Part shown: one piece after another, positions 19,116 to 21,355 of the stretch
How positions within the stretch are numbered: the first letter of the stretch is position 1
Layout of the letters: each line of letters opens with the position of its first letter
Virus record (IMG/VR): IMGVR_UViG_3300030406_001830
Coordinates: 1 to 21,355 of that record
Length of the DNA: 21,355 bases
Strand: one strand, 5' to 3'
From: a virus
The notes under the pieces: generated by a model
Databases searched by the model: none
Told to the model about the DNA's origin: nothing
Seen by the model: the letters and a program-made list of their open reading frames with translations, nothing else
Translations under genes and position numbers: made by a program

Positions 19116-19571
19116 ATGCAAACAATAGTAAGAAATGGAACAAATATCAGTCTTTATTATTTAGAAGATAGTAAAACTGTAGATATAGGTTCTGACCAAA
19201 CAACAATAAGTGATGGTGGTACACTTGAATTAATTATTGGAGATTGTAATTCTAGTAATGCAACATTGCATACAGGCGTAGATGCAAAATCAGATTATTG
19301 GGGTTGGAAATATAAACATGATGGTTCTTCATGGTCAGCTAATGCAGATTTTAAGGGTAGCAATAACCTTACAACTGATATTAATGATTCTGTAACAACT
19401 ATTACTGTTTTTAACACAAACCCATTTACAGCATCTGGTACTGTTCAAATAGGTGATGAAAAAATTACTTATACAGGTGTTGATGGAACAAATCTAACAG
19501 GTTGTACTAGAGGTGCAGAATCAACAAGTGCTACAAATCATAGTGCTGACGATTTTGTAAAACAAATCTAA
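19116..19571 (+). CDS. Fibre-associated small protein (151 aa)
   Basis: The product begins MQTIVRNGTNISLYYLEDSK, a sequence start seen in small proteins that follow fibre genes in marine phages. The N-terminal part (1-85) is beta-rich with IIGDCNSSNATLHTGV (about 41-56). The C-terminal part (about 86-151) is a separate module: DINDSVTTITVFNTNPFTAS, TVQIGDEKITYTGVDGTNLT and GCTRGAESTSATNHSADDFV, the G-(D/S)-E-x-I-x-YTG and TRG motifs known from fibre and tail accessory proteins. It may cap or decorate the fibre. The RBS AAGGAG at 19103-19108 gives the start. The stop overlaps the next start in TAATG. Virion function is inferred from motif and neighbour. Confidence 0.72.
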   Translation: MQTIVRNGTNISLYYLEDSKTVDIGSDQTTISDGGTLELIIGDCNSSNATLHTGVDAKSDYWGWKYKHDGSSWSANADFKGSNNLTTDINDSVTTITVFNTNPFTASGTVQIGDEKITYTGVDGTNLTGCTRGAESTSATNHSADDFVKQI

Positions 19572-19738
19572 TGGTCAAAGCAACTGTAGCAACTGTAAAA
19601 CAAAAGATTGACGACCATGTTGACGCTTGTTCTTTTCGTTATGAAGCTATAGAAAAAAGATTAAATAGAATAGAAACTATTATGATTGGTGCAAGTGCAT
19701 CAATTATCATGTTGTTGTTAAAAATTATATTTTTTTAA
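19571..19738 (+). CDS. 55-aa holin-like membrane protein (XhlA-like layout)
   Basis: This short gene starts in a TAATG overlap with the preceding stop and ends at TAA 19736-19738, 1 bp before the next ATG. The protein has a cytoplasmic amphipathic helix (about 8-36, with KQKIDDHVDACSFRYEAIEK and RLNRIE) and one C-terminal membrane segment, IMIGASASIIMLLLKIIFF (37-55). That order, a charged helix with heptad-like spacing and then one hydrophobic helix at the very end, is that of XhlA/hemolysin-type accessory holins and related small phage lysis proteins. No endolysin is seen nearby, so a lysis role rests on topology alone. It may also be a membrane anchor of another process. Confidence 0.7.
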   Translation: MVKATVATVKQKIDDHVDACSFRYEAIEKRLNRIETIMIGASASIIMLLLKIIFF

Positions 19739-19739
19739 A

Positions 19740-20150
19740 ATGTCAACAAAAATTGGTTTACAGGGAGAGTTAATAGCAAGTTCTCTTCTTTTAAACTATG
19801 GTATTGACAATGACCTCGTGTCAAAAGAGGGATATGACATCATTGCATGGATAAATGCTAAACCTTTTCGTGTGCAAGTTAAAGCAACATCAAAACCACA
19901 TAAAGAAACAGGTGAAACAAAATATCGTTATAATTGGAATTTAGGTTATGGTGCTGACAAAAAACCATATACCCATAATGAGTGTGATATAATTATATTG
20001 GTTGCATTAGACAAACGCATTTGTCACTTTATGTTGCCAAATAACAATAAATCAAAAAAAATGTATATTAGTAAAATGACATTAGAAAATGAAGAAAAAA
20101 CATTTTATAGTGTAATTGATAATGTAAAAAACAAATGTTTATGTAGGTAA
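19740..20150 (+). CDS. PD-(D/E)XK nuclease-like protein (136 aa)
   Basis: The N-terminal 60 residues have the order of a PD-(D/E)XK nuclease core: helix with KIGLQGELIASSLLLNYG (4-21; candidate Glu10), then GYDIIAW (31-37; candidate Asp33) and the strand FRVQVKAT (43-50; Gln46-x-Lys48 in the E/Q-x-K position). Replacement of Glu by Gln in this position occurs in resolvase-like and intron-endonuclease-like members. The remaining residues include YNWNLGYG and HNECDIIILVALD, the usual strand after the core in such proteins. Possible roles are Holliday-junction or branched DNA cutting before packaging, or homing-type cutting; the sequence cannot separate them. It lies 1 bp after the holin-like gene and 3 bp before the basic 94-aa gene. 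The RBS is not obvious, so coupling is likely. Confidence 0.7.
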   Translation: MSTKIGLQGELIASSLLLNYGIDNDLVSKEGYDIIAWINAKPFRVQVKATSKPHKETGETKYRYNWNLGYGADKKPYTHNECDIIILVALDKRICHFMLPNNNKSKKMYISKMTLENEEKTFYSVIDNVKNKCLCR

Positions 20151-20153
20151 ATA

Positions 20154-20438
20154 ATGGCAAAAGCAATACGAAGAACAACAGGCAAGGGTGGTAACTACCG
20201 ACCTACAAAAAAAGGTGCAGGTATGACACAAAAAGGTATTCGTGCCTATCGCAGAGCAAACCCTAAGTCTAAATTAAAAGGTGCAGTAACAGGTAAAGTA
20301 AAAAAAGGTAGTAAGGCTGCCAAGAGAAGAAAAAGCTATTGTGCAAGGTCTTTAGGACAGTTAAAACGCAGTTCTGCAAAGACTAGAAACAATCCTAACT
20401 CTCGTATTCGTCAGGCAAGACGCAGATGGAAATGTTAA
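20154..20438 (+). CDS. Highly basic 94-aa protein, DUF6321-like
   Basis: The protein has 33 Lys or Arg and no Asp or Glu in 94 residues. Residues 24-66 (MTQKGIRAYRRANPKSKLKG, then AVTGKVKKGSKAAKRRKSYC and ARS) and the C-terminus (NPNSRIRQARRRWKC) match, from memory, a family widespread in marine phages and annotated as DUF6321, with unknown function. The pattern of short basic helices, a conserved Cys at 62 and a terminal Cys suggests nucleic-acid binding. The start has only a weak RBS (AGGTAAATA), so translation may be coupled to the preceding gene. It leads a set of three very basic small proteins; binding to packaged DNA or to host nucleic acid is inference. Confidence 0.8.
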   Translation: MAKAIRRTTGKGGNYRPTKKGAGMTQKGIRAYRRANPKSKLKGAVTGKVKKGSKAAKRRKSYCARSLGQLKRSSAKTRNNPNSRIRQARRRWKC

Positions 20439-20520
20439 GGTATCGAGGTATAAAATATACTAGAAAAAAAATTACAAATCACATATCATATATACTTTGT
20501 TTGTATAGAGGTATTGAACA

Positions 20521-20536
20521 TTTAGTTACAACTAAA
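20521..20536 (+). promoter_or_regulatory. Perfect 16-nt inverted repeat upstream of the 54-aa basic gene
   Basis: TTTAGTT-AC-AACTAAA is a perfect inverted repeat of seven bases on each side with a two-base centre. It lies in the longest gap of the window (20439-20549, about 110 bp) and ends 5 bp before the AGGAG ribosome binding site of the next gene. The short centre favours a protein-binding operator over an RNA hairpin, though a small stem with fewer pairs is possible. The rest of this gap is A+T-rich and may carry a promoter; none is convincing. Confidence 0.35.
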
Positions 20537-20549
20537 CATAGGAGTTAAA

Positions 20550-20714
20550 ATGTCATTATATAGAAACATAAACAGAAGAAAAAAAGCTGGTACAAGTCGG
20601 TCAAAGAAAAAATCAACTATATCAGCAAAGGCTTATGCTGATATGAAAGCTGGTTTTCCTAACAGCAAAAAAAATAAAGCTAAAAGAAAAAGAAAACGCA
20701 AAGCAAAAAAATAA
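20550..20714 (+). CDS. Highly basic 54-aa protein
   Basis: ATG 20550 follows TAGGAGTTAAA with good spacing; the stop is TAA 20712-20714. Of 54 residues 23 are Lys or Arg and one is acidic (Asp31). The N-terminal half is MSLYRNINRRKKAGTSRSKK, the middle STISAKAYADMKAGFP and the end a nearly unbroken Lys/Arg tail. The SLY-x-NI-x-x-(R/K)-(R/K) start resembles the opening of other small basic proteins found in the structural region of marine podophages, from memory. Function is unknown; nucleic-acid binding is likely from charge alone. The palindrome at 20521 lies directly upstream and may control it. Confidence 0.72.
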   Translation: MSLYRNINRRKKAGTSRSKKKSTISAKAYADMKAGFPNSKKNKAKRKRKRKAKK

Positions 20715-20724
20715 GGAGTAAAAA

Positions 20725-20808
20725 ATGAAAAAATCAAAGGGCTACAGAAAAGGTGGCGTTAGAAAAAAAGCAAAAGGTATGAAAAGAGGCGGTAAGAAAA
20801 AAAAATAA
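20725..20808 (+). CDS. 27-aa Lys/Arg/Gly microprotein
   Basis: ATG 20725 follows TAAGGAGTAAAA (20712-20723), the previous stop being part of the RBS region. The product is MKKSKGYRKGGVRKK, then AKGMKRGGKKKK: 15 of 27 residues are Lys or Arg, 6 are Gly, none acidic. The G-x-RKKAKGMKRGG pattern recalls tiny basic proteins that I have seen in environmental marine phage genomes, without known function. Although a frame of 27 codons can arise by chance, the strong RBS, close fit between neighbours and repeated KGYRKGG / KGMKRGG units argue that it is translated. Confidence 0.6.
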   Translation: MKKSKGYRKGGVRKKAKGMKRGGKKKK

Positions 20809-20828: not shown

Positions 20829-21355
20829 ATGTCTTATTTAATATCCAATGTGCCTTATTTTAAGGTATGGGTAAGAAAAGAATTTACTTGTGGTCATCTT
20901 AAATATCATGGTGATTTCATACACGCACTTGCATTTGCTGTTAATTGTATTCCAGACAGGTCTTTATCATTTCAAGTTGTTTTTACTGGTTGTGAAATAG
21001 ATTATGATGACTATGATACCCCTAATATACATGGTGGGGCTATGTGGGCTAGAATGCCGATACAGGGTCTAGTTGCTGACATACCATTAGATGAATACCC
21101 AGATAGAATGGAAAACCACCTATGTCAGCCTTGGGATTGTATGTCACATCATCATTCTGTCATTGTTATGGATAGAACATCATCTTCGCCTTGGTATGCA
21201 AAAATAGATGGTAAATTTTATTTAGCAAAATATATTTTTACAGTTGATTATACAGAACACGAAATTGCTGATAGTCCGGACCAACATAAGCAAAGCCATG
21301 TGCTGTATCTTACAGAGGGCAAATGGAAAGGCAATATTGTAGCTTTACCAAATAA
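20829..21355 (+). CDS. Conserved marine-phage protein of unknown function (3' truncated)
   Basis: The frame is open from ATG 20829 to the end of the window (175 codons plus two bases), so the gene continues outside. The start follows AGGGAGAACTT (20818-20828). The product begins MSYLISNVPYFKVWVRKEFT and contains IPDRSLSFQVVF (about 45-56), MWARMPIQGLVADIPLDEYP (about 76-95), CQPWDCMSHHHSVIVM (about 102-117) and, near the window end, KWKGNIVALPN. The pattern of VPY-x-x-x-(W/F)-VR-x-E at the start and a (W)DC-x-S-(Y/H)-H motif in the middle recalls a family found in many marine phages, whose function I do not know. From the usual family ending I expect the stop only a few codons beyond the window. 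No enzyme motif is visible; the His/Cys-rich centre could bind metal. Confidence 0.8.
   Translation, partial: MSYLISNVPYFKVWVRKEFTCGHLKYHGDFIHALAFAVNCIPDRSLSFQVVFTGCEIDYDDYDTPNIHGGAMWARMPIQGLVADIPLDEYPDRMENHLCQPWDCMSHHHSVIVMDRTSSSPWYAKIDGKFYLAKYIFTVDYTEHEIADSPDQHKQSHVLYLTEGKWKGNIVALPN

Follow-up and report, generated by a model that had tools for sequence, protein, structure and literature searches.

An accessory, exchangeable late-gene cassette of small basic proteins in a podovirus-like phage

INTRODUCTION

Accessory and exchangeable head-associated proteins that are delivered together with the DNA are exemplified by the internal proteins of T4 (IPI type) and by DarA/Hdf of P1. A second point of comparison is provided by T4-like cyanophages, in which domains of the family DUF6321 form part of longer proteins. 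ORF29 of S-SCSM1 combines in one chain the families phrog_23735 (W; residues 64-145), DUF5872 (P; 204-236), and DUF6321 (D; 443-517), and it is given as a virion protein in its record, consistent with mass spectrometry of CsCl-purified particles (PMC9602691). For S-CREM2, both ORF137 (D at the C terminus; 4 peptides, 4.1%) and ORF160 (W-like plus P; 7 peptides, 13.1%) appear in the virion table (PMC10665884), and the W-P part of S-SCSM1 ORF29 shares 38% identity with ORF160 (E 2e-25). The authors of both papers point out that CsCl preparations may carry over abundant nonstructural proteins (PMC9602691, PMC10665884). S-SZBM1_192, a D protein for which eight suitable tryptic peptides were computed, is absent from the confirmed virion list of that phage (PMC9146016).

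Among algal giant viruses, DUF5872 and DUF5754 proteins are listed for Chrysochromulina parva virus BQ1 (PMC12085832). A full-text search of open-access papers returned none naming DUF6321, found DUF5872 named in a single paper, on an algal virus, and gave nothing fitting on small basic proteins in marine phage virions. Here, a cassette of small, strongly basic proteins from a podovirus-like phage is described and compared with these systems.

RESULTS

Layout of the cassette

The window, that is, the whole stretch of DNA analyzed, is a 21,355-base IMG/VR virus record carrying terminase, portal, capsid, and tail genes on one late strand. The gene order at its right end is N, D, Y, M, G, S, and the features are as follows.

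19740..20150, plus strand: N, PD-(D/E)XK nuclease-like; flank outside the exchanged block, used as bait (Pfam and PHROGs scans)
20150..20210, no strand: putative recombination junction (identity step against relative L200)
20154..20438, plus strand: D, 94-aa DUF6321 protein (PF19846), net charge about +33 (ORF list, Pfam, PHROGs, dN/dS)
20426..20548, plus strand: Y, 40-aa protein with weak DUF4278-like "YRG" repeats (ORF list, Pfam, relatives)
about 20521..20536, no strand: 16-base palindrome TTTAGTTACAACTAAA inside Y (sequence, comparison with relatives)
20550..20714, plus strand: M, 54-aa phrog_25774 protein, net charge about +22 (PHROGs, homologues, dN/dS)
20725..20808, plus strand: G, 27-aa K-G-G-repeat protein, net charge about +15 (ORF list, relatives)
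20829..21353, plus strand: S, phrog_3704, truncated by the window end, 228 aa in relative L178 (PHROGs, relatives)

A preliminary description of this DNA had reported three consecutive genes for extremely basic proteins, and both the coordinates and the compositions were confirmed. D contains 33 Lys or Arg in 94 residues and no Asp or Glu, M contains 23 in 54 with a single Asp, and G contains 15 in 27 with no acidic residue; the computed net charges are +32.5, +21.5, and +14.5, respectively, with a pI of about 12. All three genes are real, but they are not strictly consecutive, as the 40-aa gene Y between D and M had been missed. Y carries two YRG motifs, shares its first 13 bases with the end of D, and ends 1 base before M; it is kept in relatives L178, L199, L200, and L203 and is present in a 65-aa form in L019 and L092. 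Two strong ribosome-binding sites had been claimed, and these were found for M (AGGAG) and G (AAGGAG) at normal spacing, the site of D being weak. The nuclease-like gene N does adjoin D upstream, but the nuclease call itself is weak (PDDEXK_5, 20.8 bits versus a cut-off of 26.1). The palindrome around which the genes were said to stand is present but lies within Y and is absent from four close relatives; a role as a regulatory site was rejected on this ground, and the palindrome, showing no sign of importance, is probably incidental.

Of 149 D genes, 41 contain within their final bases the start of another frame of at least 38 aa, often as ATG/GTG GAA RTG. The gene following D varies among phages, and the overlap (window 20426-20438) may reflect translational coupling. 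Two further small genes were observed in the window. A 55-aa protein with a C-terminal hydrophobic stretch (19571-19738), possibly holin- or spanin-like, directly precedes N in most relatives, and a 31-aa Lys-rich ORF (957-1052; MQKSQIADMEKTAKKAKEEKKAAEKKKTTKK) lies immediately upstream of the portal gene, with a 34-aa counterpart before the portal gene of G006.

Among the ORFs of 100 first-order Markov copies made from the window, none had a net charge of at least 22 and only seven had at least 15. Compared with L200, the differences in D, Y, M, and G are mostly silent, and the dN/dS values are 0.019/0.39 for D, 0.008/0.22 for M, and 0.015/0.07 for G. It was concluded from the Markov copies and the silent differences that D, M, and G did not arise by chance, and the substitution pattern indicates that all three are under purifying selection.

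Protein families

The 94-aa member had been likened to a widespread, uncharacterized marine-phage family, and this was borne out by a match of 38.2 bits to DUF6321, above the gathering cut-off of 28.5, with residues 21-92 aligned to positions 5-72 of the 72-position model. D also matches the C-terminal ends of PHROG profiles that differ greatly in length. Its C-terminal module reads RRKSYCARS...RRWKC, and in the corresponding KS[FY]CAR...W.C motif at the protein end, S61, C63, R65, W92, and C94 are invariant across 28 diverse members; together with G28, these are the strongly conserved residues of D. The AlphaFold model of D is mostly helical (pLDDT 87, pTM 0.68), and the confident viral models matched by it in a fold search were DUF6321 proteins only, one being the S-SCSM1 virion protein. 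Single-sequence and profile searches of D against the PDB gave nothing meaningful, and the fold search against the PDB gave no convincing match (best Z 2.4 by VIA-align, which covered five chains only, so that the lack of a known fold for D proves nothing). No DNA-binding fold was recognized.

M matches phrog_25774 with an E value of 4.6e-21 (residues 1-41 on positions 1-41 of 42). Its conserved core, MSLYRNIN+RKKAGTSRSKKKSTISxKAYAxMKAGFP, with 15 invariant residues in M overall, is followed by a variable Lys-rich tail, and homologues occur in pelagiphages, roseophages, OM43 phages, and T7-like cyanophages. The AlphaFold model consists of three helices (pLDDT 84, pTM 0.38). Nothing meaningful was obtained from PDB sequence searches with M (single and profile), I (phrog_7595, described below), or W; the best match of M, ribosomal protein L37 (E 0.23), was taken as chance. 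The M homologue in the HTVC010P record (L161:5555-5695) is truncated and unannotated, giving two tblastn pieces and an altered C terminus, and this represents either damage or a sequencing error; M is not shortened in HTVC100P, HTVC024P, and Skadi. For gp69 of Venkman (L176:1325-1465), a 46-aa M-family protein labeled "Gp59-like DNA recombinase," support for the label was not found, and the label perhaps stems from confusing Syn5 gp59 with T4 gp59.

G is the only one of the three proteins that is low-complexity, and it resembles longer proteins made of K-G-[MY]-x-K-G-G repeats, a family of which it is a short form. In most relatives it lies directly upstream of S. S has a full length of 228 aa (L178:3506-4192), is highly conserved, and is tied to K-G-G-repeat genes. 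PHROGs places it in the category "moron / host takeover" and labels phrog_3704 "ferredoxin," yet neither a ferredoxin nor any other domain was found in the full-length protein with Pfam.

Linkage and the interchangeable slot

Genes on contigs were called by a simple longest-ORF scheme, and neighborhoods were scored around several baits. Among 25 scorable loci with N as bait, M and a D-slot protein were present together in 21, both were missing from 4, and one alone was never seen (Fisher p 8e-5, an overstatement since the loci are related); here and below, the contigs are related and often fragments, and the counts represent strong trends rather than independent events. The D slot is occupied by either D or I, never by both in N- or S-bait loci, and I takes this position beside M in most relatives of the window phage. 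The last 30-40 residues of I are common to D (RRKSxxAR...W; hhalign probability 94.7%), the full pattern being IRFG...RKSFKARH...YWxxKxW with an N-terminal half unlike D. I also matches DUF5754 weakly (21.9 bits; cut-off 27.4). A weak match to phrog_220, "minor head protein and DNA pilot" (E 3.7e-5), was not confirmed by named matches and hence was not used.

With M as bait, D or I was located no more than two genes away on the same strand in 38 of 79 loci, compared to 13.6 under random placement, while 80 major-capsid-gene loci taken as a control contained I in 5 cases and D, M, or G in none. Nine longer related records gave a similar picture: M lies side by side with D (two) or I (three) in five, and D, I, and M are all lacking in four, among them possibly incomplete records of 18.8 and 22.6 kb. 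The suggestion that the set may be a conserved system, to be checked by whether the smaller genes travel with DUF6321, is thus supported, M being found in the N-bait loci only with D or its substitute I. A single-sequence scan of genome contigs gave 14 matches, mostly on marine-bin or single-cell contigs in phage-like settings.

Upstream of S the order is [D or I]-(Y)-P-(J)-W-G, where P of these sister cassettes exceeds the DUF5872 cut-off. Among 63 S-bait loci with at least four upstream genes, D or I was found in 39, both in none, and G directly before S in 37, the K-G-G class being identified by pattern and not by profile. In G006, D is followed by a 56-aa basic protein, M, and a 36-aa basic protein, in that order, and in L092, M and G are fused as one protein. 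From these arrangements it was deduced that the slots persist while their contents change. The core of the cassette is taken to be a pair, consisting of a basic protein with the RKSxxAR...W C-terminal module (D or I) and the highly conserved M, with G/S and the basic families P and W as add-on parts. The pair is not strictly obligatory, since M can be lost or damaged as in HTVC010P.

As a separate observation, a cytidylyltransferase that ends in DUF5824 is immediately followed by an I-module protein in Pelagibacter phage HTVC008M (L365:1519-3710). As cytidylyltransferases are seen repeatedly in the virion proteomes of cyanophages, basic end modules may mark cargo proteins.

Exchange and dispensability

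Nucleotide identity to L200, about 0.6-0.85 before D, rises at the start of this gene to 0.89-1.0 and stays at that level to the window end; at the protein level, N is 57% identical and D 98%. This step suggests that the block D-Y-M-G-S was most likely swapped recently, as a unit, between diverged phages. G004, known from a 37,958-base record, is a near relative whose 668-aa portal has the same start, and it contains neither D, I, nor M nor any other small basic ORF. The cassette is therefore accessory, and an essential role in DNA packing is contradicted for this phage group.

Position and virion data in other phages

In cultured phages belonging to different groups, the pair occurs as D-x-M in HTVC100P, HTVC024P, and Skadi, and it is found near packaging genes in Venkman (M-D-endonuclease-TerL-portal), S-TIP28 (D-M-TerL), and CRP-738 (I-M-x-TerS-TerL). 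D lies between TerS and TerL in P-HM2, S-CREM2, and S-SZBM1 and two genes after the cement protein in DSL-LC04. M lies between scaffold and capsid in HTVC019P, adjoins terminase in Syn5, and adjoins the portal gene in HTVC028P. In the window phage and the HTVC010P-type phages, the cassette does not adjoin terminase.

The available virion data concern long fused homologues (D, W, and P) in T4-like cyanophages rather than stand-alone proteins from a phage of podovirus-like type. Digestion with trypsin yields next to no measurable peptides from such basic proteins (computed as two usable peptides for D, one for M, and none for G), and past proteomics could easily have missed stand-alone D, M, and G. 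S-SZBM1 also has a 457-aa virion protein, S-SZBM1_139 (L453:2989-4362), with an Ala/Lys/Gly-rich basic C-terminal half, whose motif CWKGYKATGTK resembles the sequence CWxGYEKKGxK found next to the P module of S-SCSM1 and S-CREM2.

DISCUSSION

The analysis shows the cassette genes to be genuine, conserved, and linked, as well as interchangeable and dispensable. D, Y, M, and G, with S, are read as an accessory, horizontally exchanged late-gene cassette, and the reading we favor, at roughly even odds, is that its products are accessory DNA-binding proteins loaded with the genome. The late position, the basic surface, the head and packaging neighbors, and the virion homologues suggest that D or I and M go into the head with the genome. 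From their position, the genes would be expressed late; D or I and M would then most likely bind phage DNA or a DNA-terminase complex, enter the head together with the genome, and be delivered with the DNA, which they may help to organize or protect on arrival. That the proteins bind DNA is suggested by their charge, and the presence of stand-alone D, M, and G in the virion of this phage is proposed by analogy with the fused cyanophage proteins. Being accessory and exchangeable, the cassette probably confers an advantage rather than a basic function; protection or organization of incoming DNA is our guess at the benefit.

Alternatively, D or I and M could be packaging helpers that bind terminase, procapsid, or concatemer DNA during filling and are then released, comparable to small-terminase partners and to the HNH proteins beside terminases. 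Location beside genes for TerS, TerL, the portal, or an endonuclease, seen in several genomes of unrelated architecture, would fit such a role, as would the missing report of S-SZBM1_192 from its virion, and the strongly conserved nonbasic residues of D and M suggest a protein partner. We nevertheless consider this unlikely, as W, P, and D proteins were detected in two virion proteomes, the cassette is away from terminase in the window and in HTVC010P-type phages, and close relatives package DNA without it. Nor do D and M appear to be small terminases: neither gave a terminase match in Pfam or PHROGs, and separate TerS genes are nearby in CRP-738, S-CREM2, and P-HM2.

A function in host takeover or counter-defense, in which small basic proteins made in the cell or ejected with the DNA would either bind to nucleic acids or ribosomes of the host or protect phage DNA against host nucleases, is likewise given a low probability. 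The accessory distribution, the alternative genes per slot, and the block exchange between diverged phages are what would be expected if the slots reflected an arms race; moreover, a nuclease gene is adjacent, and S falls in a host-takeover category of PHROGs. Against this, no defense or toxin family was found in Pfam and PHROGs scans of the cassette proteins, and both the position in a late operon and the homologues among virion proteins indicate a link to the particle. If the proteins were ejected, this explanation would overlap with that of accessory proteins loaded with the genome.

The preliminary description had also considered a protamine- or histone-like system. Bulk condensation of the packaged genome would be consistent with the extreme charge, the late genes, and the homologues in virions, yet a general role of this type is not supported, as the 38-kb record of G004 has no small basic protein, and we consider it very improbable. 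Unlike protamines, D and M show conservation at G, S, C, W, Y, N, and P positions, which argues for a specific fold or partner, and no cassette protein matched histone or HU families in Pfam or PHROGs. A 38-kb genome has about 76,000 phosphates, and more than 100 copies of D would be required to neutralize 5% of them, yet no more than four peptides were obtained from S-CREM2 ORF137; this last argument is weak because such counts undersample basic proteins. That the genes are spurious ORFs, or ORFs in decay, in a region that is AT-rich and A-rich is scarcely credible. Although G is A-rich, has only 27 aa, and gave no tblastn match in the phage collection, it is retained in L200 and forms one protein with M in L092. 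For D and M, whose dN lies far below dS, this reading is already refuted, and good ribosome-binding sites, hundreds of homologues, and conserved order also speak against it.

We further put forward, tentatively and with little confidence, that marine viruses share a kit of portable basic modules (DUF6321, phrog_7595, phrog_25774, DUF5872, phrog_23735, and K-G-G repeats) that bind packaged DNA and thereby load proteins into the head. The kit would take the form of separate mini-genes in podovirus-like phages, of domains of long virion proteins in T4-like cyanophages, and, for at least DUF5872 and DUF5754, would extend to algal giant viruses. If true, this would be a virion cargo or DNA-organizing system across unrelated viruses, never described as such. 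Through the analysis, a set of unrelated "hypothetical proteins" becomes a modular, linked system that has a core of two parts, alternatives for the same slot, gene fusion, and mass-spectrometric support for some parts. Its families are found in viruses that rank among the most abundant in the ocean, including HTVC010P-type pelagiphages, and its function becomes testable in cultured phages, where proteomics may overlook such proteins.

All parts belong to cataloged uncharacterized families (G only as a repeat type), and no new protein family is therefore proposed. A described system of this make-up was not found in the open-access literature, although an earlier description elsewhere is possible. 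The nearest functional analogy would be with the T4 IPI-type and P1 DarA/Hdf proteins, to which no sequence relation was found. Algal giant viruses share DUF5872 with P and, weakly, DUF5754 with I, their hosts and virion types being unrelated. Phrog_7595 shares the slot beside M and the C-terminal likeness with D and differs in its N-terminal half. The phrog_25774 proteins of Syn5 (gp59), HTVC019P, Venkman (gp69), and S-TIP28 (gp64) have the 37-residue core and the structural-gene setting of M, whereas M in the window precedes G and is far from terminase. D is in turn related to the DUF6321 proteins of T4-like cyanophages, which have the same C-terminal domain (79.5 bits for S-SCSM1 ORF29, 40.8 for S-CREM2 ORF137, and 81.8 for P-HM2 PHM2_112, versus 38.2 here) and a late-gene setting near terminase. 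There, DUF6321 is the C-terminal domain of a protein of 165-517 aa, whereas here it makes up nearly the whole of a 94-aa protein and is followed by M and G in a podovirus-like phage. The system appears to be undescribed, with a two-part core and interchangeable partners that occur as mini-genes in podovirus-like phages and as virion-protein domains in cyanophages.
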